Shown here piece by piece: positions 45,997-55,976 of a stretch of DNA of 64,000 bases. The stretch spans positions 1 to 64,000 of the forward strand of contig JACDEE010000003.1 in NCBI GenBank assembly GCA_013816585.1, in the 5' to 3' direction. The translations under genes and the position numbers were made by a program. How positions within the stretch are numbered: position 1 is the first letter of the stretch; each line of letters begins with the position of its first letter. Below the pieces are notes generated by a model that had not been told where the DNA came from, searched no databases, and saw only the letters and a program-made list of their open reading frames with translations. This stretch comes from Sphingosinicella sp. GTDB taxonomy: Bacteria; Pseudomonadota; Alphaproteobacteria; Sphingomonadales; Sphingomonadaceae.

Positions 45997-47070
45997 ATGT
46001 CGAACCGCAGCGCCCAGAATGAGGGGACGAGGGAAGTTCGCGACGCCCATCGTTTTGACGTTTCACGCCTCGATGGCTGGCTGCGCCAGAATATCGAGGG
46101 ATATGAAGGCCCCCTCCAGGTCGAACAGTTCAAAGGCGGACAGTCGAACCCGACCTACAAGCTGGTAACCCCAGGCCGTCGCTATGTCCTTCGTCGCAAG
46201 CCGCCGGGCAAATTGCTCCCGGGTGCCCATGCGGTGGACCGCGAATATCGAGTGATCGAGGCGCTCGGGCGTAAGCAGTTCCCGGTGCCGAAAACATTTG
46301 GTCTTTGCCTCGACGAAGAAGTGATCGGCACGATCTTCTACGTGATGGAGATGGTCGAGGGGCGGATTTTCTGGGAGCCGACTTTCCCGGAAGTCGGCCT
46401 TTCGGAAAGGCCCGCTTATTTCGATGCGATGAATGCGACGATCGCCGCGCTCCATGCGGTCGACCCGGGACCGGCGGGACTTGGCGATTATGGCAGGCCA
46501 GGCAATTATTTCGAACGGCAGATCGGCCGCTGGTCGAAACAATATCTGGGCGATGAGGAAGCGGGACGGATCCCGGCGATGGACCGCCTGGTCGAATGGC
46601 TGCCGCAGAGCATCCCGGCCGACGATGGCGAGGCGCGCGCCATCCATGGCGATTTCCGCTGCGACAACATGGTGTTCCACGCCAGTGAACCCAGGATCCT
46701 GGCCGTGCTGGACTGGGAATTATCGACGCTCGGCCATCCGCTCGCCGATTTTTCCTATCACGCGATGATGTACCGCCTGCCGGCCTCCTATTTTTCGGGT
46801 CTCGCCGGGCTCGATCTGGTCGCGCTCAATATCCCCTCTGAGGCCGATTATATCGCGGCTTATTGCCGGCGCACCGGCCGCGAGAACATTCCTGATTTCG
46901 ATTTCTACATGGCCTTCAACATGTTCCGCCTGGCTGCGATCCTGCACGGCATCAAGGGCCGGCTGGCGCGCGGGACAGCCGCGTCCGACCATGCGGGCAA
47001 GATGGTCGAGAGCCTGGATGCGCTTGCTGACCTGGCATGGCAGCAGGCGGCGCGCGCCGGCGCCGTTTAG
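45997..47070 (+). CDS. phosphotransferase family protein (ACAD10/11-like)
   Basis: 357 residues from ATG 45997, with AGGAG seven bases upstream. Aminoglycoside-phosphotransferase fold: FKGGQSNPTYKLV binds the nucleotide, HGDFRCDNMVFH holds the catalytic Asp, and LDWELSTLGHPLADFSYHAM the metal Asp. The group is the bacterial relative of the kinase domain of ACAD10/11, which phosphorylates 4-hydroxyacyl-CoAs in fatty acid breakdown. Convergent with trpA (4-base overlap). Confidence 0.85.
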   Translation: MSNRSAQNEGTREVRDAHRFDVSRLDGWLRQNIEGYEGPLQVEQFKGGQSNPTYKLVTPGRRYVLRRKPPGKLLPGAHAVDREYRVIEALGRKQFPVPKTFGLCLDEEVIGTIFYVMEMVEGRIFWEPTFPEVGLSERPAYFDAMNATIAALHAVDPGPAGLGDYGRPGNYFERQIGRWSKQYLGDEEAGRIPAMDRLVEWLPQSIPADDGEARAIHGDFRCDNMVFHASEPRILAVLDWELSTLGHPLADFSYHAMMYRLPASYFSGLAGLDLVALNIPSEADYIAAYCRRTGRENIPDFDFYMAFNMFRLAAILHGIKGRLARGTAASDHAGKMVESLDALADLAWQQAARAGAV

Positions 47071-47852
47071 GCAGCCTCCTTCATAGAGGCGACAAAGGCC
47101 CGTATTCGGTCGGCAACGCCTTCGGCCCCCGCCTCGATCAGCCTGACAATTGCAGAGCCCGATATCACGCCGGCCGCTCCGGCATCGAGTGCCGCTTTGA
47201 CATGGTCGGGAGTCGAAATGCCGAAGCCGAGCACCGGCGGAGGGGCGCCGAGCCTTCGCAATTCGCCGAACAACGCGTCATGGTTGAGGCTGATATCGTC
47301 ACCGGCGCCGGTGACGCCGGCGCGCGCTACGCAATAAGTATAGCCACCGCCCAGCACGGCCAGCCGCTGCAGCGTTTCGGACGGGGTATTGGGCGCCGCG
47401 ATCATTACCGGCGCGACCCCCGCTGCCCGCGCCGTTCGGGCGAAGGGTTCGGCTTCAAACGCCGGAACGTCGGCCACCAGGACGCTGTCCACCCCGGCTA
47501 CTGATGCGGAGCGATAGAAAGCCTCCATCCCGCGGGCGAGCACGATATTGGCGTAGGTGAGGATACCGACCGGGACGCTGGCATGCTTCGCCCGAAAATC
47601 CCGGATCAGCGCGAAGCAATCGGAAGGAGTCACCCGATTGGCGAGCGCGCGCTCCGCCGCTGCCTGGATCACGGGGCCATCCGCCACCGGATCGGAAAAA
47701 GGAATGCCGAGCTCGATCATGTCGGCCCCGCCCTCCACCAGCGCATCCAATATCGCAGCGCTGGTTTCAATATCCGGGTCCCCCAGCATGACGAAGGCTC
47801 CGAACGCCCCCTTATTGTCCAGCCGGTCGAACATCTGGCGGTAGCGGGTCAT
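47067..47852 (-). CDS. trpA: tryptophan synthase alpha chain
   Basis: 261 residues. TrpA cleaves indole-3-glycerol phosphate to indole and glyceraldehyde-3-phosphate. The catalytic residues lie in [20 protein letters not shown] (Glu, Asp) and the phosphate-binding loop [10 protein letters not shown] and GVISGSAIV. Last gene of the trp operon; its ATG overlaps the trpB stop by 4 bases. Confidence 0.97.
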
Positions 47853-49024
47853 GGCTTCAGCCCCAGCAGAAGCTGCGCTTGCTCCATATCCTTGTCCCCG
47901 CGCCCCGACAGATTGACCACCAGCACGAGCTCTTCCCGTGCCTCCTCGATCATCTTCAAAGCGTAAGCGAGCGCATGGGCGGATTCGAACGCGCAGACGA
48001 TCCCTTCGGATCGGGCCAGCAGGGCAAAGGCATCCAATGCTTCCTGGTCCGTCGCCCCGACATATTCGGCGCGTCCGCTGTCCTTCAGATAGGCATGTTC
48101 CGGCCCAACCGCTGGATAATCCAATCCAGCCGATACCGACCAGCTCTCGGAAATCTGACCATCGGCATCCTGCAGGACATAGGTCTCGGCACCGTGCAGG
48201 ATTCCAGGGCGGCCGCGCAGCAAGGTCGCGCCATGTTCCGCCCCGTCCAGCCCCTTGCCCGCCGCCTCGACCCCGATCAGGCGCACATCTTCATCTTCGA
48301 CGAAATCGGAAAACATCCCCATCGCGTTGGACCCGCCGCCGACGCAGGCGATCACGGCGTCCGGCAAGCGGCCTTCTTCTTCTAGTATCTGGGCGCGGGC
48401 CTCGATCCCGATCACGCGCTGATATTCGCGCACCATCAAGGGGAAGGGATGCGGCCCGGCCACCGTACCCAGCAGGTAATGAGTGTCGGCGAAGCTTGCC
48501 GTCCAATCTCGAAGCGCCTCGTTGATCGCATCCTTGAGCCCCGCGCTGCCGCTTTCGACCGGCACCACTTCGGCGCCCATCAGCTGCATTCGAAAGACGT
48601 TGAGCTTCTGCCGTTCCACATCATGCGCGCCCATATAGATGCGCGTTTCCAGCCCGAACAAAGCGCCCGCCAGCGCCGTCGCCACCCCATGCTGCCCGGC
48701 ACCGGTTTCGGCGATGATCCGCCTTTTTCCCATTCTGCATGCCAGCATGGCCTGGCCCAATACCTGATTGGTCTTGTGGGCACCGCCATGAAGCAGATCC
48801 TCCCGCTTCAGATAGAGGCGCGCCTTGGCTGAACCGAGGTTGCGGCAGCGGGTGAGCGGCGTTGGCCGGCCGGCATATTTGGCCAGCAATTCGGCAAGTT
48901 CCGCCTGAAAAGCCACATCCTGCTGCGCATCGAGGAAGGCCGCTTCCAATTGCTCCAACGCGGGCATGAGGATTTCGGGAACATAAGCGCCGCCAAAAGC
49001 CCCGAAGCGTCCCTTCATCCGCAT
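47849..49024 (-). CDS. trpB: tryptophan synthase beta chain
   Basis: 391 residues, full length. The PLP lysine is Lys84 in [15 protein letters not shown], and the phosphate loop is [21 protein letters not shown] is represented by [13 protein letters not shown]. It condenses indole with serine to make tryptophan inside the alpha2-beta2 complex. Overlaps trpCF by 10 bases and trpA by 4, so expression is tightly coupled. Confidence 0.97.
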
Positions 49025-50439
49025 GGAGTGAGCTCCGCCCGCACCGGCAGTCGAAGCGCCTCGAAGAAAGCCCGCATCTTATTCTCATCCTTCCAGCCTG
49101 GCGCGGCCTCGACTCCCGATCCAACGTCGATCGCATAGGCACCGACCCGCGAGGCGGCCCGCGCATTGGCTGGATTCAATCCACCCGCCAACAAACTGGA
49201 GCCAAGATCGGTCCGACCGCTGACCCGGGACCAGTCGAACATTCTCCCCGTGCCGCCGGATTGCCCGCCGACGGCGGTGTCGAACAACATCCTGTCCGCG
49301 CCCAGCCGTGGCCCCGGTACTTCGCGACCGACGCCGCTCGCCGCCCAGATCTCGCACGTTTCCGGAAGCAGATTGCGGAGCGCCCTTATGTAGCGACCAT
49401 CCTCCTCTCCATGAAGCTGGACCGCGTGTAGCCCGATCGTCTGCGCCGCCAGAGCGACCTTCATCACCTTCTCATTTCGGAACACGCCGACCAGTTTCAT
49501 GTCCCCGGCGCCGGCCGCTATCGCTTCAGCCTCACCGATCGTCACCGCGCGCGGCGTGTCCGGCACCATGACCAGCCCTGCATAAGTCGCGCCCGACCGC
49601 CGAGCGAGAAGCAGATCGGCTTCATGGGTTATCCCGCAAATCTTCACTCGGCCAAAGGCGAGCGCCCGCGCCGCATCGCCGGGATCGGCCGCTCGCATCA
49701 AAGACGATCCCACCAGGAAGGCATCGGCATAGGGGCTCAGGCGTTCGATATCGGCCCGAGAGCTTATGCCCGATTCCGCGACTACCAATCGGTCGGCGGG
49801 GATGAGGCCGGCCAGCCGCTCGGTCACCGCCAGATCGACCTCCAGCGTGGCGAGATTACGATTGTTGATCCCGATCAGGCCGGCGCCGAGCGCCACCGCG
49901 CGTCGCACTTCCTCCTCGTCATGCGCCTCCACCAGGGCGTCCATTCCAAGCCGCTCTGCTTCGGCGATCACGTCGCGAGCCTCGGCATCGTCCAGCACCG
50001 AAAGCATGACCAGGACCGCGTCCGCGCCATACAGCCGCGCTTCCGGCACCTGGCGGGGATCGACGATGAAATCCTTGGCCAGCAAGGGCCCTTCATAGAC
50101 CGCCCGCACCGCCGCCAGATCGTTCAGAGAGCCACCGAAATAAGGCGCATCGGTCAGCACGCTGATCGCATCCGCCGCACCTTCGTACAGGCGCGCCACG
50201 GCGGCGGGATCGACCTCTTCCCGCAACTTGCCTTGCGAGGGCGAAGCGCGCTTCACCTCCATCACGATCCGAGCGCCCGGCTGGGCCAAAGCGGCCTTCA
50301 AGCTTCGTGTCGTCGGAAGCACCTGTGATCGCAGATCGCCAAGGCTGACGCCTTCCAGCCTCCCCGCGACGTCGATCCGCTTTCGGGTGACGATCTCGCT
50401 TAATATCCCGCCCCGCGACTTTGTGACCGGTTCAACCAC
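49015..50439 (-). CDS. trpCF: fused indole-3-glycerol-phosphate synthase / phosphoribosylanthranilate isomerase
   Basis: 474 residues (GTG start). Residues 1 to about 262 are Trp[45 protein letters not shown] and VAESGIS are its motifs. From residue 265 comes Trp[33 protein letters not shown] and [10 protein letters not shown]. The join is only a few residues long and has no stop. A single chain carrying both (beta/alpha)8 barrels is known from enterobacteria; in alphaproteobacteria the two genes are usually separate. Overlaps trpD by 8 and trpB by 10 bases. Confidence 0.96.
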
Positions 50440-51499
50440 GGCTCGCCTCGACGAAACGGGTGAGCTGACTGCAGGCGGAACCGGAGGCCAAGACGTCCGA
50501 GGCCATAGCGACGCCGCCTTTGAGATCCTGCGCCAAGCCAGCCGTCAGCAGCAAGGCGCCTGCGTTGATCGCGACCATCTGCCTCTCGACCGCCGTGCCA
50601 AATCCCAACAGCAGCGCCTTCAGCCGCTCCGCATTCTCCTCGGGGCCACCGCCCTTCAGCAATGTCAGCGGCGCTCGTTCCAGACCGGCCTGTTCGGGAG
50701 TCATCGTCAATTCCTCAAAGATCCCGTCCGTAAGCCGCACCGCCTGTGTTTCCCCGTGCAGCGCCACTTCGTCCAGGCCATCGCCATGCACGATCAAGGC
50801 ACGCCCGACCCCCAAAGCAGCAAGCGTCTCGGCCACGGGCCGCAAAAGGCGGGGATCCGCGACGCCGAGCAATTGCACGGGCGGCTCTGCCGGATTGAGG
50901 CAGGGCCCCAGCACGTTCATGATCGTCCGGACGCCCAGCGCGCGCCTTACCGGCCCGGCATGACGGAGCCCCGGATGATAATTTGGCGCGAACAGGAAGC
51001 AGATCCCGACTTCGTCGAGCGCCCGCCGCGAGACTTCCGCGCTGCAATCCAGCTTCACGCCGAGATGTTCGAGCACATCCGCCGACCCGCAGCGCGAAGT
51101 GATCGATCTATTGCCATGTTTGGCGATGGGGAGCCCGGCGGCCGAGGCGACGAAGGCGACAGCGGTCGAGATATTGATCGATCCCGATCCGTCGCCGCCG
51201 GTGCCGCACGTATCGGCGAACAGATAATCCGGCCTTTCGAAATCGGCGTCGGCAGCGCGGAGAGCCCGCGCGGCCCCAATCAGTTCGTCGGCCGTTTCGC
51301 CCTTGAGACGGAGGGCGACCAGCATCGAGGCGATGGCCGGTTCGCTCAGCCGGCCTTCGACCAGCTCCGCGAATAATTGTTCGGAGGCGCGCTGGGTGAG
51401 CGAATTTCCGGAATAAAGCGTCTCCAGCGCCGCCTGGACAGGATCCTGTGGCGTGGGATCGACGGGAAACAAGCCGGCGAGGTCGGGATTCATGTACAT
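50432..51499 (-). CDS. trpD: anthranilate phosphoribosyltransferase
   Basis: 355 residues, no TrpG domain fused. The substrate loop is CGTGGDGSGSINISTAVAFV and KHGNRSITSRCGSADVLEHL; the acceptor anthranilate region is FLFAPNYHPGL. It adds phosphoribosyl to anthranilate. ATG at 51499 with AAGGA eight bases upstream; another ATG lies two codons on. First structural gene after the leader and attenuator; trpE and trpG must be elsewhere. Confidence 0.96.
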   Translation of the reverse strand: MYMNPDLAGLFPVDPTPQDPVQAALETLYSGNSLTQRASEQLFAELVEGRLSEPAIASMLVALRLKGETADELIGAARALRAADADFERPDYLFADTCGTGGDGSGSINISTAVAFVASAAGLPIAKHGNRSITSRCGSADVLEHLGVKLDCSAEVSRRALDEVGICFLFAPNYHPGLRHAGPVRRALGVRTIMNVLGPCLNPAEPPVQLLGVADPRLLRPVAETLAALGVGRALIVHGDGLDEVALHGETQAVRLTDGIFEELTMTPEQAGLERAPLTLLKGGGPEENAERLKALLLGFGTAVERQMVAINAGALLLTAGLAQDLKGGVAMASDVLASGSACSQLTRFVEASRG

Positions 51500-51526: not shown

Positions 51527-51552
51527 AAAAAAAAGCCCGCCGGGCGGCGGGC
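51527..51552 (-). terminator. trp attenuator terminator
   Basis: Stem GCCCGCC (51535-51541) and GGCGGGC (51546-51552), loop GGGC, then a run of eight T on the minus strand. It sits between the leader peptide stop and trpD, 28 bases before the trpD ATG, so transcription can be ended before the structural genes. Confidence 0.9.
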
Positions 51553-51588
51553 CATCTTGGAAAGAGGAAGACTGCTAGAGAGTCATCG

Positions 51589-51747
51589 TTACCAAAGACG
51601 CTTGAGGGCCGCCGTGGGGGAAAGGGTCCGCCACCAATGCCATGCAGGCGCCGCCGCGATTGCGCGCGAAGACGCGCCGGGCGCGCTCGACGACAGGCCG
51701 GACGGGGCCCGGCTGAGTGTCTTGTTCAGGGTCGCGCGAATGGACAT
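51589..51747 (-). CDS. trpL: trp operon leader peptide
   Basis: 52 codons from ATG 51745-51747 to TAA 51589-51591. The N-terminal part is rich in Ala, Ser and Arg; residues 35-40 read AWHWWR (Trp at 36, 38, 39), and the last residue before the stop is also Trp. Four tryptophans in the last 17 residues, directly ahead of a terminator hairpin and trpD, are the mark of ribosome-mediated attenuation. A GAGG ribosome site precedes the ATG by about eight bases. A TTGACG lies upstream on the same strand, but no well-spaced -10 is obvious. The mRNA alternative structures were not computed. Confidence 0.9.
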   Translation of the reverse strand: MSIRATLNKTLSRAPSGLSSSAPGASSRAIAAAPAWHWWRTLSPTAALKRLW

Positions 51748-51990
51748 GCCCTAAACCTCGCGATTCTAACGGCTTGCGTCAACCCACTTAAAAAAGAATT
51801 TGATCCGTGCCGCGTCGGAACAGGCGAGGCACGGGGCTTGCGTCTCTGCCCGACATGGTTAAGCAGCCGGCAATGTGGAGCCTCGCAATGGGACCCTGCA
51901 ACGACTTCATGAGTTAACCGCTCGGACGGGACGTGGAAGGGGCATCAGCCCACATTCGCGTTTACCCCGGGTGCGGCTTCAAGAGTGTTT

Positions 51991-52435: not shown

Positions 52436-54616
52436 CTATTTGGTCGGAAAGCCGCGCTTCTTCAGCAATGCGTTCACGTCCGGATCGCGGCCCCGGAAGG
52501 CGCGATAGGCTTCGGCCCGGTCGGTTTCATTGCCGGTCGAAAGCAGGGTGTCGCGGAATCGCGTGGCGGTCGCCTTGTCAAACACATTGCCTGTTTCCTC
52601 GAATGCCGCCCAGGTATCAGCGTCCATCGTTTCCGACCAGAGATAGGAATAATAGCCGGCCGAATAGGCGTCGGACGAGAAGAGGTGATTGAACTGGGGC
52701 AGACGGTGCCGCATCACCAGCTCGCCCGGCATTCCGATCTTCGCCAGCGCATCCCGCTCGAACTTGTCCGGATCGATCACGCCGTCCGGGTCCATGTGCA
52801 GCATCATGTCGACTATGGCGGACGACAGATATTCGGCCGTGGCGAAGCCCTGGTTGAACTTCGACGACGCTTCGATCTTGTCCAGCAGCGCCTTGGGCAT
52901 CGGGGCACCCGTCTTGTAATGTTTGGCGAATTTCGAAAGCACCTGCGGCGTCAGCAGCCAATTTTCATTCACCTGGCTCGGATATTCCACGAAGTCCCGC
53001 GGCGTTCCGCCAAAGCTTGGATAATGAATGTCCGACAGGAAATAATGGATGGCATGGCCGAATTCGTGAAACAAAGTCTCGGCATCGTCGAGGGTGATCA
53101 GCACCGGCTCACCCTGCGCGGGCTTCACGAAATTATTGTTGTTGGACCCCAGCACGATGTCGTCGCCGAGCAGGCCGGCCTGGCTGCGGAAGGTCGTCGC
53201 CCAGGCTCCTGAACGCTTGCCGGTGCGGGCGAAATCATCGCGATAAAAAACGCCGACCTGGCTGCCGTCGCGCCGGTCGGTGACGCTATAGGCCCGGATA
53301 TCCGGATTCCAGACGGGCACCGTCCCGGTGATTTCCTTGAAATCCAGATCGTACAATTCGCCGGCCGCCCAAAGCGAGCCGTTGATGATATTGTTCAGCT
53401 CGAAATAGGGCTTAATCTCGTCCTGGGAGAGGTTGTAGCGGTCGTTCCGAACCTTTTCCTGATAATAACGATAATCCCACGGCTCGATCTTGATCTTCGC
53501 GCCCGATTTGTCGGCAATCGCCTGCATGTCGCGCACTTCTTCCTTCACGCGCGCGACCGCGGCCGGCCAGACGCGCATCATCAGGCCCATCCCCTGATCC
53601 GGCGTCTTGGCCATCGTATCCTGCATCCGCCAGTCGGCGTGGCTCTTATAGCCAAGCAATCTGGCGCGATCCGCGCGGAGCTTGACGATATCGGCGATCA
53701 CCTGGTTGGTGTCGTTCGCATCCTTATTATCCCCGCGATTGACGAAGGTGCGCCAGATCTTTTCGCGGAGCGCGCGATTGTCGGCAAAGGTCAGCACCGG
53801 GTCGACCGCCGAACGGGTGTTGACGATCGCATAGCTTCCCGCGGGCAACTTTCGCTCCTTCGCGGCAGAGGCGGCGGCCGCCTTCACGTCCTGCGGCACG
53901 CCCTTCATTTCGGCTTCGGTGGCCACGATATGCGTGCTCTCGTCCGCCAGCACCTTCTCGCTGAAGGTCGAGAATTCTCCCGCAAGTTCGGCATTATAGG
54001 CCGAAAGCTGAGTTTTCTGCCGGTCGTCCAGATTGGCGCCGCGGCGGACGAAGCTGTCATAAAGGCGCGTCACCAGCCGTTGCTGCTTGGCGTCCAGGCC
54101 CGAAGTCTCGCGCGCCTCGTAAACGCTCTTGATCCGCTGAAACAGAAGCGGGTTCAAATTGATCTCGTCCGACGCGGCGGAAAGCTTCGGCGACCATTCC
54201 TTGCTCAGCGCCTGATAGGCGGGGTTGGTCATATTGCTGGTCATGACCCCGAACAGGCTCAGCACACGATCCTGTGTTTCGCCGGCTTTCTCCAGCGCTT
54301 CGACCGTATTGGCGAAGGTCGGCTTGTCCTTGTTGTTGGCGATGGCCAGCACTTCGCGGCGCTGCTCGTCGATCGAATATTGGATCGCTTCGGGGAACAG
54401 CTCAGGAGTCACCTTGTCGAACGGGGGCACGCCGTCATAGGGGCCTTCCCATTTGGCGAGCAGGATATTGTCGGGAGCCTGCGCTGGCCCTTCCGCCGCA
54501 GCTTCGGTTTCAGCTGTCATATCGATCGTCGCTTTATCCTGGGCCATTGTGGTGCAACCACCGAGCGCCAGCGCGGTTGCGCTCGCCAGAAGAACTGATT
54601 TCAAGTGTCTCTCCAT
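52436..54616 (-). CDS. M3 family metallopeptidase, lipoprotein
   Basis: About 726 residues. Lipoprotein signal LLASATALALGGC then a helical oligopeptidase with the zinc motif LFHEFGHAIHYFLSD (HExxH) and downstream ligand Glu, placing it with peptidyl-dipeptidase Dcp/oligopeptidase A. It degrades short peptides in the periplasm. ATG at 54616 is used; a TTG four codons later is better spaced from GGAGA and may be the start. Convergent with the response regulator gene; divergent from the DAHP synthase. Confidence 0.9.
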   Translation of the reverse strand: MERHLKSVLLASATALALGGCTTMAQDKATIDMTAETEAAAEGPAQAPDNILLAKWEGPYDGVPPFDKVTPELFPEAIQYSIDEQRREVLAIANNKDKPTFANTVEALEKAGETQDRVLSLFGVMTSNMTNPAYQALSKEWSPKLSAASDEINLNPLLFQRIKSVYEARETSGLDAKQQRLVTRLYDSFVRRGANLDDRQKTQLSAYNAELAGEFSTFSEKVLADESTHIVATEAEMKGVPQDVKAAAASAAKERKLPAGSYAIVNTRSAVDPVLTFADNRALREKIWRTFVNRGDNKDANDTNQVIADIVKLRADRARLLGYKSHADWRMQDTMAKTPDQGMGLMMRVWPAAVARVKEEVRDMQAIADKSGAKIKIEPWDYRYYQEKVRNDRYNLSQDEIKPYFELNNIINGSLWAAGELYDLDFKEITGTVPVWNPDIRAYSVTDRRDGSQVGVFYRDDFARTGKRSGAWATTFRSQAGLLGDDIVLGSNNNNFVKPAQGEPVLITLDDAETLFHEFGHAIHYFLSDIHYPSFGGTPRDFVEYPSQVNENWLLTPQVLSKFAKHYKTGAPMPKALLDKIEASSKFNQGFATAEYLSSAIVDMMLHMDPDGVIDPDKFERDALAKIGMPGELVMRHRLPQFNHLFSSDAYSAGYYSYLWSETMDADTWAAFEETGNVFDKATATRFRDTLLSTGNETDRAEAYRAFRGRDPDVNALLKKRGFPTK

Positions 54617-54755
54617 TATTGGCGTCACGGAATTTCCGGATCGCGCTTATCGCCTAGTCTATAGGTCCGTGGCTGAACCTTGGGCAACCCGGGCGCAGGC
54701 GGACCCTCTCGCCCCACTGGCCCCTGCCCTCTGGCGCCCGGGCGCAGCCCCTTCT

Positions 54756-55976
54756 ATGAGCGCGGCTATGGCGCAGAATTGGAGCCCGGCAAGCTGGCAG
54801 CAGCATGAAGCAAGGCAGCAGCCTGTTTACGCCGACAAGGCTGCGCTCGACGCCGCCACGCAGGAACTGGCTTCCTACCCCACGCTTATCGAGCCTGCCG
54901 ATGCCCGCAAGCTCAAGGCAGCTATTGCCGACGCTCAGGCCGGCCGAGCTTTCGTCCTCCAGGGCGGCGACTGCGCCGAAAGCTTCGCCGAATTCTCCCC
55001 TGCCAATATTGATGCGAGCTTCCGCCTGATCATGGACATGGCGGGAATCATGGCCGCCCGATCGGGCCTGCCGATCGTCAAGATCGGGCGCATGGCGGGG
55101 CAATTCGCCAAGCCCCGATCGACCGAGATCGAACAGAAACAGGGCGCCGGCCTTCCGGCCTATCGCGGCGACATCGTCAACGGCATCGCGTTCGAGGAAG
55201 GCAGCCGGGCGCCCGACCCTGCGCGCATGTTCCGCGCTTATGCCCAGGCCTATGCCACGCTAGCGCGGCTTGGCGATCTGGCAGAGGCCGAGGGTGCCGA
55301 CCTCTATACCAGCCACGAAGCCCTGCTGCTTCCCTGGGAACAGGCGCTGACCCGGCCCGAAGCGGAGGGTGCCGGCCGCATCTACGGTACCTCGGCACAT
55401 CTTCTCTGGATCGGCGACCGTACCCGCTTCCCCGGCTCCGCCCATGTCGAATTCGCGAGGGGGTTAGCGAACCCGATCGGCATCAAATGCGGCCCCAGCC
55501 TCGATCAAGCCACGTTGGTGACCCTGCTCGACACGCTTAATCCGGCGCGCGAACCCGGCCGCATCACGCTCATCAGCCGGATGGGTGCAGGCCGGATCGG
55601 TGAGGCGCTCCCGCCTTTGCTCCGCGCGGTGCGGCAGGAAGGCCACCCCATACTCTGGTCCTGCGACCCGATGCACGGCAACACGATCAAGGCCGCCAAC
55701 GGCTACAAGACCCGCCCGTTCGGAACCATATTGGACGAAATCCGCGCCTTCTTCGAAATCTGCGCTGCCGAAGGCGCGCATCCGGGCGGCGTGCATGTCG
55801 AAATGACCGGCCAGAACGTCACCGAATGCACCGGCGGCGCCGTCCCCGTCACCGAACAGAATCTCGCCGACCGCTACCACACCCATTGCGACCCCCGCCT
55901 CAACCCCGGCCAGGCGCTGGAACTGGCGCACCTGGTCGCGGACATCATGCCCCGGCGGAAGTCGCAGGCGGCCTGA
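54756..55976 (+). CDS. class II DAHP synthase, short form
   Basis: 406 residues (ATG 54756, or 402 from ATG 54768). First step of the shikimate pathway: phosphoenolpyruvate plus erythrose-4-phosphate gives DAHP. Class II motifs: VLQGGDCAESF, KIGRMAGQFAKPRS, YTSHEALLLPWEQALTR, WIGDRTR, KCGPS, ISRMGAGRI, WSCDPMHGNT, and GGVHVEMTGQNVTECTGG. Usual bacterial class II enzymes have roughly 450-470 residues. Here the stretch between YAQAYATLARL and DLYTSHEALLL is very short; it corresponds to the helices that hold the allosteric Trp site in M. tuberculosis. This resembles the short PhzC-like subclass. Confidence 0.92.
   Translation: MSAAMAQNWSPASWQQHEARQQPVYADKAALDAATQELASYPTLIEPADARKLKAAIADAQAGRAFVLQGGDCAESFAEFSPANIDASFRLIMDMAGIMAARSGLPIVKIGRMAGQFAKPRSTEIEQKQGAGLPAYRGDIVNGIAFEEGSRAPDPARMFRAYAQAYATLARLGDLAEAEGADLYTSHEALLLPWEQALTRPEAEGAGRIYGTSAHLLWIGDRTRFPGSAHVEFARGLANPIGIKCGPSLDQATLVTLLDTLNPAREPGRITLISRMGAGRIGEALPPLLRAVRQEGHPILWSCDPMHGNTIKAANGYKTRPFGTILDEIRAFFEICAAEGAHPGGVHVEMTGQNVTECTGGAVPVTEQNLADRYHTHCDPRLNPGQALELAHLVADIMPRRKSQAA

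Follow-up and report, generated by a model that had tools for sequence, protein, structure and literature searches.

A probable ribosome-mediated tryptophan attenuator before trpD in a Sphingosinicella genome, with a putative mini-ORF overlapping its leader stop

The window, by which we mean the whole 64,000-nucleotide stretch of DNA analysed here, carries a group of tryptophan genes on the minus strand. The start of trpD lies at 51499, and trpD is followed by a trpC-trpF fusion, trpB and trpA. All four gene identities rest on profile matches above the family cut-offs, which bears out the operon trpD-trpCF-trpB-trpA named in the initial annotation. The two elements that this annotation had placed before trpD are present as well: a 52-codon ATG frame with Trp-His-Trp-Trp near its end and a terminal Trp (51747-51589), and a 7-bp terminator with eight U (51552-51527). 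The Trp codons of the leader are W36 (51642-51640), W38-W39 (51636-51631) and the terminal W52 (51594-51592). The leader stop is UAA (51591-51589), and it stands 36 nt from the terminator stem, GCCCGCC/GGCGGGC, whose arms occupy 51552-51546 and 51541-51535. A search of the whole window with Rfam release 15 at gathering thresholds returned just two tRNAs, and no family at the leader. The features of the locus are as follows.

51777..51782, minus strand: TTGACG, a -35-like box, 35 nt 5' of the leader ATG
51589..51747, minus strand: Trp leader peptide ORF, 52 codons, with W36-H-W38-W39 and W52, ending in UAA
51631..51642, minus strand: sensor codons Trp-His-Trp-Trp; at least two Trp within five codons in 21/21 genus leaders
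51607..51614, minus strand: region 2, CGGCGGCC, putative antiterminator, complementary to the terminator 5' arm (predicted pairing)
51575..51595, minus strand: uORF2, a putative overlapping mini-ORF in the -1 frame, UUG GUA ACG AUG ACU CUC UAG; the stop that it overlaps is UGA in most relatives
51535..51552, minus strand: terminator hairpin of 7 bp, seen in the sequence
51527..51534, minus strand: T8 run of the terminator, seen in the sequence
50432..51499, minus strand: trpD, anthranilate phosphoribosyltransferase (TIGR01245, 388 bits, cut-off 199)
49015..50439, minus strand: trpC-trpF fusion (NF006945, 514 bits, cut-off 380)
47849..49024, minus strand: trpB (TIGR00263, 611 bits, cut-off 392)
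47067..47852, minus strand: trpA (TIGR00262, 281 bits, cut-off 102)

The initial annotation had proposed a search upstream of trpD in other sphingomonad genomes, and this search recovered the arrangement repeatedly. At least two Trp codons within five codons, together with a terminator, were found 5' of trpD in all 21 loci examined in the window's genus, and 33 more leaders came from a sister genus. A covariance model (R1) was built from 19 of the 22 genus leaders. A trpD match was obtained in 22 of the 26 genus genomes, and the same 22 have a strong match to the model (at least 53 bits); the three genomes kept out of the model all still match, at 53-83 bits. In one genome (G021) trpD is a 51-residue piece and the leader match lies at the end of another contig, and the linkage of leader and trpD therefore stands for the other 21 genomes. 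The last codon of the leader is Trp in 20 of the 21 genus leaders. The N-terminal part varies freely, with 27 to 105 nt from the ATG taken as the start to the first Trp codon of the cluster. In the sister genus, 49 of 71 genomes match the model at E 5e-4, and the 33 further trpD leaders obtained there are distinct. At weak scores R1 is unspecific: a search of 296 genomes of the order gave matches in 97 at E 0.01, and among the 28 loci newly obtained by that search 12 have trpD and 16 match none of the trp queries.

Single leader peptides are also found in more than one genome. The sister-genus genome G203 has its leader peptide in common with Sphingomicrobium nitratireducens (L038), and the leader of G013, in the window's genus, is common to Sphingosinicella sp. 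CPCC 101087 (L014, L036). In another family of the order, Trp-containing frames also precede trpD (L025/L151, L026 and L157, with NWRWW, TWWRW and NWWW). As for the genes themselves, trpD identity is 66-72% within the genus (20 full matches), about 57-64% for the sister genus and 38-45% in ten other genera of the family that were sampled (G026-G035), and trpC and trpF are fused in the window; these trp genes may have followed an evolutionary course of their own. In Sphingomonas daechungensis (L053, 3990-6342) the matches to trpD and trpCF break into pieces, which suggests frameshifts either in the genes or in the assembly.

The leaders were compared in two sets. The first consists of 34 trpD leaders, 13 of them from outside the window's genus and at least partly from the same sister genus. 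The second came from 57 new loci, 11 of which had no match to trpD or DAHP synthase; 4 of the 37 trpD leaders in it were duplicates of earlier ones. L034-L037 repeat L012, L006, L014 and L015, L050 ends at the trpD start, and L146 and L155, whose leader peptides are identical to those of L038 and L040, were excluded. D_L156, with no leader-terminator pair by the rule used, was also left out.

A TTGAC motif lies 35-38 nt 5' of the in-frame leader ATG in 27 of the 34 trpD leaders (35 nt in the window), and 36-39 nt 5' of it in 10 of 20 leaders from the trpE side of the pathway, which are described below. With this spacing the transcription start would fall at or beside the AUG, which suggests a transcript that begins there and is leaderless. 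No -10 box was recognised at the leader promoter.

In our model of the stalled state, the ribosome stands on the last clustered Trp codon and the terminator 3' arm is not yet made. Among the 34 trpD leaders, the median probability of antiterminator pairing, P(2:3), is 0.80 with the stalled ribosome versus 0.59 without a ribosome; stalling raises it by more than 0.05 in 23 leaders and not so in 11. For the leader of the window the modelled values are 0.77 and 0.02, and the antiterminator alternative that the initial annotation had suggested looking for is thus predicted by this model. In its final state the RNA is more stable with the terminator than with the antiterminator (median -37.2 versus -29.2 kcal/mol), and hence the antiterminator must act kinetically, as is the rule in known attenuators. 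Covarying stems, which had been named as a further check, were not found at a significant level: for the helices in a MAFFT alignment (A1), 63 of 500 shuffles reach the observed score, six of the seven terminator pairs are invariant, and covariation in the 1:2 helices does not exceed that of shuffles. With the proposed structure, 86.6% of the alignment cells are paired, versus at most 49.2% when it is slid. Complementarity of the antiterminator lies in the best 5% of shuffles in just 2 of 34 trpD leaders and 6 of 20 trpE-side leaders. Leader folds were not unusually stable relative to shuffles (z -1.04 and -0.14), and fold stability was dropped as evidence for the attenuator.

We propose the following course of events. 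Transcription would begin at the leader AUG or close to it. A shortage of charged tRNA-Trp would make the ribosome stall on the W-x-W-W codons; in the model, this leaves region 2 (CGGCGGCC in the window) free to pair with the terminator 5' arm, and transcription would run on into trpD. When Trp is plentiful, the ribosome would reach the leader stop and mask part of region 2, and the terminator would form. We do not favour the terminal Trp codon as a second sensor, since a ribosome halted at that codon would itself mask part of region 2. Attenuation before trpD, as called in the initial annotation, is supported by the conservation, in two genera, of Trp codons, terminator and linkage to trpD, and by the modelled antiterminator. 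We therefore have little doubt that a ribosome-mediated Trp attenuator controls trpD-trpCF-trpB-trpA.

The overlapping mini-ORF had not been described in the initial annotation, and it offers another explanation for the terminal Trp codon. It was analysed in the two leader sets without L135 (G021) and without the other-family leaders L025, L026, L151 and L157; in two of the latter, L025 and L026, no overlapping mini-ORF was seen by eye. Within 8 codons after the leader stop, the -1 frame closes in 29 of the 34 trpD leaders of the first set, versus 6.1 expected from dinucleotide shuffles, with TAG in 14, TAA in 8 and TGA in 7. As controls, the +1 frame closes in 5 of these leaders and the next frame-0 stop appears in 4. 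The 8-codon limit was set after the first set had been seen and was then kept for the new sister-genus leaders, in which the -1 frame closes in 28 of 33 versus 5.5 expected, the +1 frame in one and frame 0 in none. Five leaders in each of the two sets (5/34 and 5/33) are without a short -1 frame. On the trpE side, it is found in 6 of 20 leaders (2.6 expected) and in 2 of 9 (1.3 expected).

The short -1 frame goes with the kind of leader stop. When both leader types are pooled, it follows 61 of 66 leaders ending in UGA and 4 of 30 ending in UAA or UAG (Fisher p 1.7e-14, a value that, like all P values for the mini-ORF, ignores shared descent). Of 70 long ORFs ending in UGA, drawn from ten sphingomonad loci and the window, 5 have it. 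UGA is the stop of 59 of 67 trpD leaders versus 7 of 29 trpE-side leaders, and six of these seven are followed by a short -1 frame. In the window's genus all leaders but that of the window end in UGA, and the sequence N-UG-GUG-A then holds two start-like codons of the -1 frame.

The codon before the terminal Trp is CGA in 15 of 20 genus leaders, CUU or CUC in 4 and CAA in 1. Arginine at this place is thus encoded by CGA in 15 of 15 genus leaders ending in Trp, and CGA makes an AUG in the -1 frame; a count of 15/16 would include L011, which does not end in Trp. The leader frame of L011 itself reads through the mini-ORF and ends at the mini-ORF stop. CGA is rare elsewhere, with 67 of 1444 Arg codons (4.6%) in trpD and trpCF and 0 of 54 in the remainder of the genus leader tails. 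Over the 67 pooled trpD leaders, the overlap has AUG-GUG in 16 and GUG without AUG in 22 (GUG in 38 altogether), CUG alone, as CGA-CUG, in 18, and no NUG (GCG-GUA) in 5; AUG at the overlap is not used in the sister genus. The window's own mini-ORF is atypical: the leader stop is UAA, UUG-GUA replaces AUG-GUG, and the -1 frame still closes at UAG. It would start at UUG or at the inner AUG.

The stretch after the leader stop is 55% identical between species of the genus (median), and the -1 stop has therefore been kept in diverged sequence. A CTCTAR motif in this stretch was considered as the loop of a post-stop hairpin, and this idea was rejected. In trpD leaders this hairpin has little support (median z -0.58, with z below -1.64 in 5 of 34); on the trpE side its support is better (median z -1.26, with 7 of 20 below -1.64). 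The alternating stop codons of the -1 frame explain the motif better. We consider it highly probable that the mini-ORF is under selection, and the joint claim of an attenuator together with this selection remains a likely one.

For the use of the frame we lean towards termination-reinitiation, in which ribosomes that finish the leader would restart at the overlap, on the mini-ORF. In the E. coli trp operon, according to PMC1183508, early release of the ribosome from the leader stop sets the basal read-through, and low read-through needs the decision to fall before that release. A restarted ribosome would stay longer near the leader end, between the two halves of the antiterminator, and would halt before it could melt the terminator, and basal read-through would be lower as a result. 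That the mini-ORF has this effect is a tentative proposal.

Alternatively, the short -1 frame could be a mere safety stop for ribosomes that have slipped into the -1 frame (at a starved Trp codon, for instance) or have restarted by accident, and its translation would bring no gain. Such a stop would suit the position of the -1 stop (12 nt or more ahead of the terminator in 56 of 57 cases), the variable length (the frame closes 2 to 7 codons after the overlap), the peptide, which is not conserved, and the fact that the rule holds in UGA-ending trpE-side leaders too (6/7). By itself, however, it explains neither the UGA preference of trpD leaders (59/67 versus 7/29) nor the choice of CGA, the rare codon that makes AUG, before the terminal Trp (15/15), nor why the +1 frame is without such stops (5/34 and 1/33), and no slippery motif was noticed by eye. 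We regard this alternative as rather unlikely. Termination-reinitiation explains the UGA preference, the AUG-making CGA, the -1 stop and the rule that follows UGA in both leader types.

The initial annotation had further held that a leader upstream of trpD makes the second half of the pathway separately sensed from the first. This is right as far as it goes and yet incomplete, because the first half has its own Trp attenuator and both halves read the same signal. In the window's genome (G000:C25, L114), DAHP synthase, trpE and trpG lie together on another contig, and this first-half operon is preceded by a terminator and a leader of the WWRW type ending in ...SYRWWRWLASGPEGAPV. Of the 26 genus genomes, 20 have the DAHP synthase of the operon; trpE is found in exactly these genomes, and in all 20 a Trp leader and a terminator stand before DAHP synthase-trpE-trpG, with TGGTGGCGCTGG as the sensor in 17. 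Separately, the window itself holds, not far from the trp operon, a gene resembling class II DAHP synthase (54453-55976, plus strand). Read from TTG it scores 519 bits, below the NCBIfam cut-off of 615, and the genome therefore has two kinds of DAHP synthase.

Both modules are present in 18 genus genomes. They are contiguous in two (G005 and G013), where trpG is followed by the trpD leader and then by trpD. The single-contig 2.4-Mb genome G008 (L115) has its two Trp leaders head to head in one intergenic region. In five others the modules are 83-577 kb apart on one contig, and the remaining ten have them on separate contigs. The cluster of L042 is unbroken, and its one leader, a WWW leader, precedes DAHP synthase; trpG directly precedes trpD there and no leader stands between them, from which we infer that the gain of the trpD leader may predate the splitting of the cluster.

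Each module also occurs alone. The leader, trpD and trpB are present in G002, G010, G016 and G018, and no trpE, anthranilate synthase N-domain or operon-type DAHP synthase was found in these four genomes. Both modules are missing from G019 and G025. In G017 (95% complete) and G022 (68% complete) the trpE module is present, with no trpD detected and no trpB over the cut-off, a gap that may reflect assembly loss. In the trpD-only genomes, anthranilate could possibly come from kynurenine. Kynureninase was rejected as a mark of these genomes: it is present in 24 of 26 genus genomes, the four trpD-only ones among them, and is therefore not discriminating.

No TrpR over the family cut-off was found in any of the 26 genus genomes, and a weaker match exists in 19. 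TrpR was rejected as a co-regulator, since the matches are all sub-threshold and the copy in the window's genome passes the YerC/YecD cut-off. This YerC/YecD-type copy adjoins a hisG-like gene, presumably hisG to judge from its sequence features. A TrpR-like protein below the TrpR cut-off is encoded near the trp genes in G005, G008 and G020 (L255:1455-1967, also L256, L257 and L258).

The E. coli trp attenuator precedes trpE, whereas here trpD onward is controlled. The E. coli leader has 14 residues versus 52 codons here, and the transcript here is probably leaderless. Further differences from the E. coli system are that no TrpR over the cut-off is found in the genus, that a -1 mini-ORF overlaps the leader end, and that no Rfam family matches at the gathering threshold. 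Trp codons in a leader ORF and alternative antiterminator and terminator structures are common to both (for E. coli, PMC1183508). The Salmonella his attenuator with an extra hairpin, modelled in the same source, is likewise a device proposed to cut basal read-through after ribosome release; it uses a hairpin, whereas a restart frame is proposed here and the post-stop hairpin is weakly supported in trpD leaders. In the leader-gene reinitiation described by Korolev et al. (2016; PMC4833913), the ribosome also restarts after the leader stop, but it does so on the structural gene, whereas here it would do so on a frame of 2-7 codons that ends before the terminator.

Another comparable case is the trpL-trpE(G) system of Sinorhizobium meliloti, which is also alphaproteobacterial, with split trp genes and a leader RNA from the AUG (reported there, inferred here). 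According to PMC7298713, just trpE(G) of the three trp operons is attenuated in S. meliloti, whereas here both halves are attenuated in cis, and the S. meliloti trpL sRNA, which starts at the AUG, destabilises trpDC mRNA in trans. By this precedent of an sRNA acting on trpDC mRNA, and given that the leaders here may also be leaderless, a released leader RNA or peptide might act in trans as S. meliloti rnTrpL/peTrpL do and link the two trp operons. We think this improbable; trpD has its own cis attenuator here, and a trans link is therefore not needed. Scarcely credible is the view of a chance ORF before the ordinary terminator of an upstream transcript: GC-rich sequence does give many chance ORFs, and stable folds in shuffles too, but the same combination of Trp cluster, terminator and linked trpD is found again in 21/21 genus loci and 33 sister-genus leaders.

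Comparative surveys of proteobacterial attenuators were reportedly made by Vitreschak et al. and by Merino et al., and sphingomonad attenuators as such may already be in print. Among the matches listed in our literature search, which covered titles and the beginnings of abstracts, with subscription papers mostly outside it, there was no description of two trp attenuators in sphingomonads or of an overlapping mini-ORF in a trp attenuator. A term search of PMC2965389 gave no occurrence of tryptophan, trpE or sphingomonads. The attenuation mechanism itself is known; what sets the sphingomonad case apart is the proposed restart frame over the leader stop, together with attenuation in both halves of a divided pathway.

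Collectively, it is possible, and we put it forward with reserve, that the translated restart mini-ORF, entered only after the Trp leader has been finished, is a conserved working part of the attenuator that sharpens the OFF state without a Trp repressor, and that, with the DAHP synthase-trpE-trpG attenuator, the two halves of the pathway form modules that are regulated independently and lost separately. With its two attenuators, this pathway divided at anthranilate differs from that of S. meliloti, in which one attenuator is reported to act on both halves (PMC7298713). Each half of the pathway can be absent without the other, as in the four trpD-only and the two trpE-only genomes (one of the latter 68% complete). 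How a system without Trp repressor would keep its basal read-through low can be tested in these bacteria, where the proposed restart frame offers a defined target for mutation.
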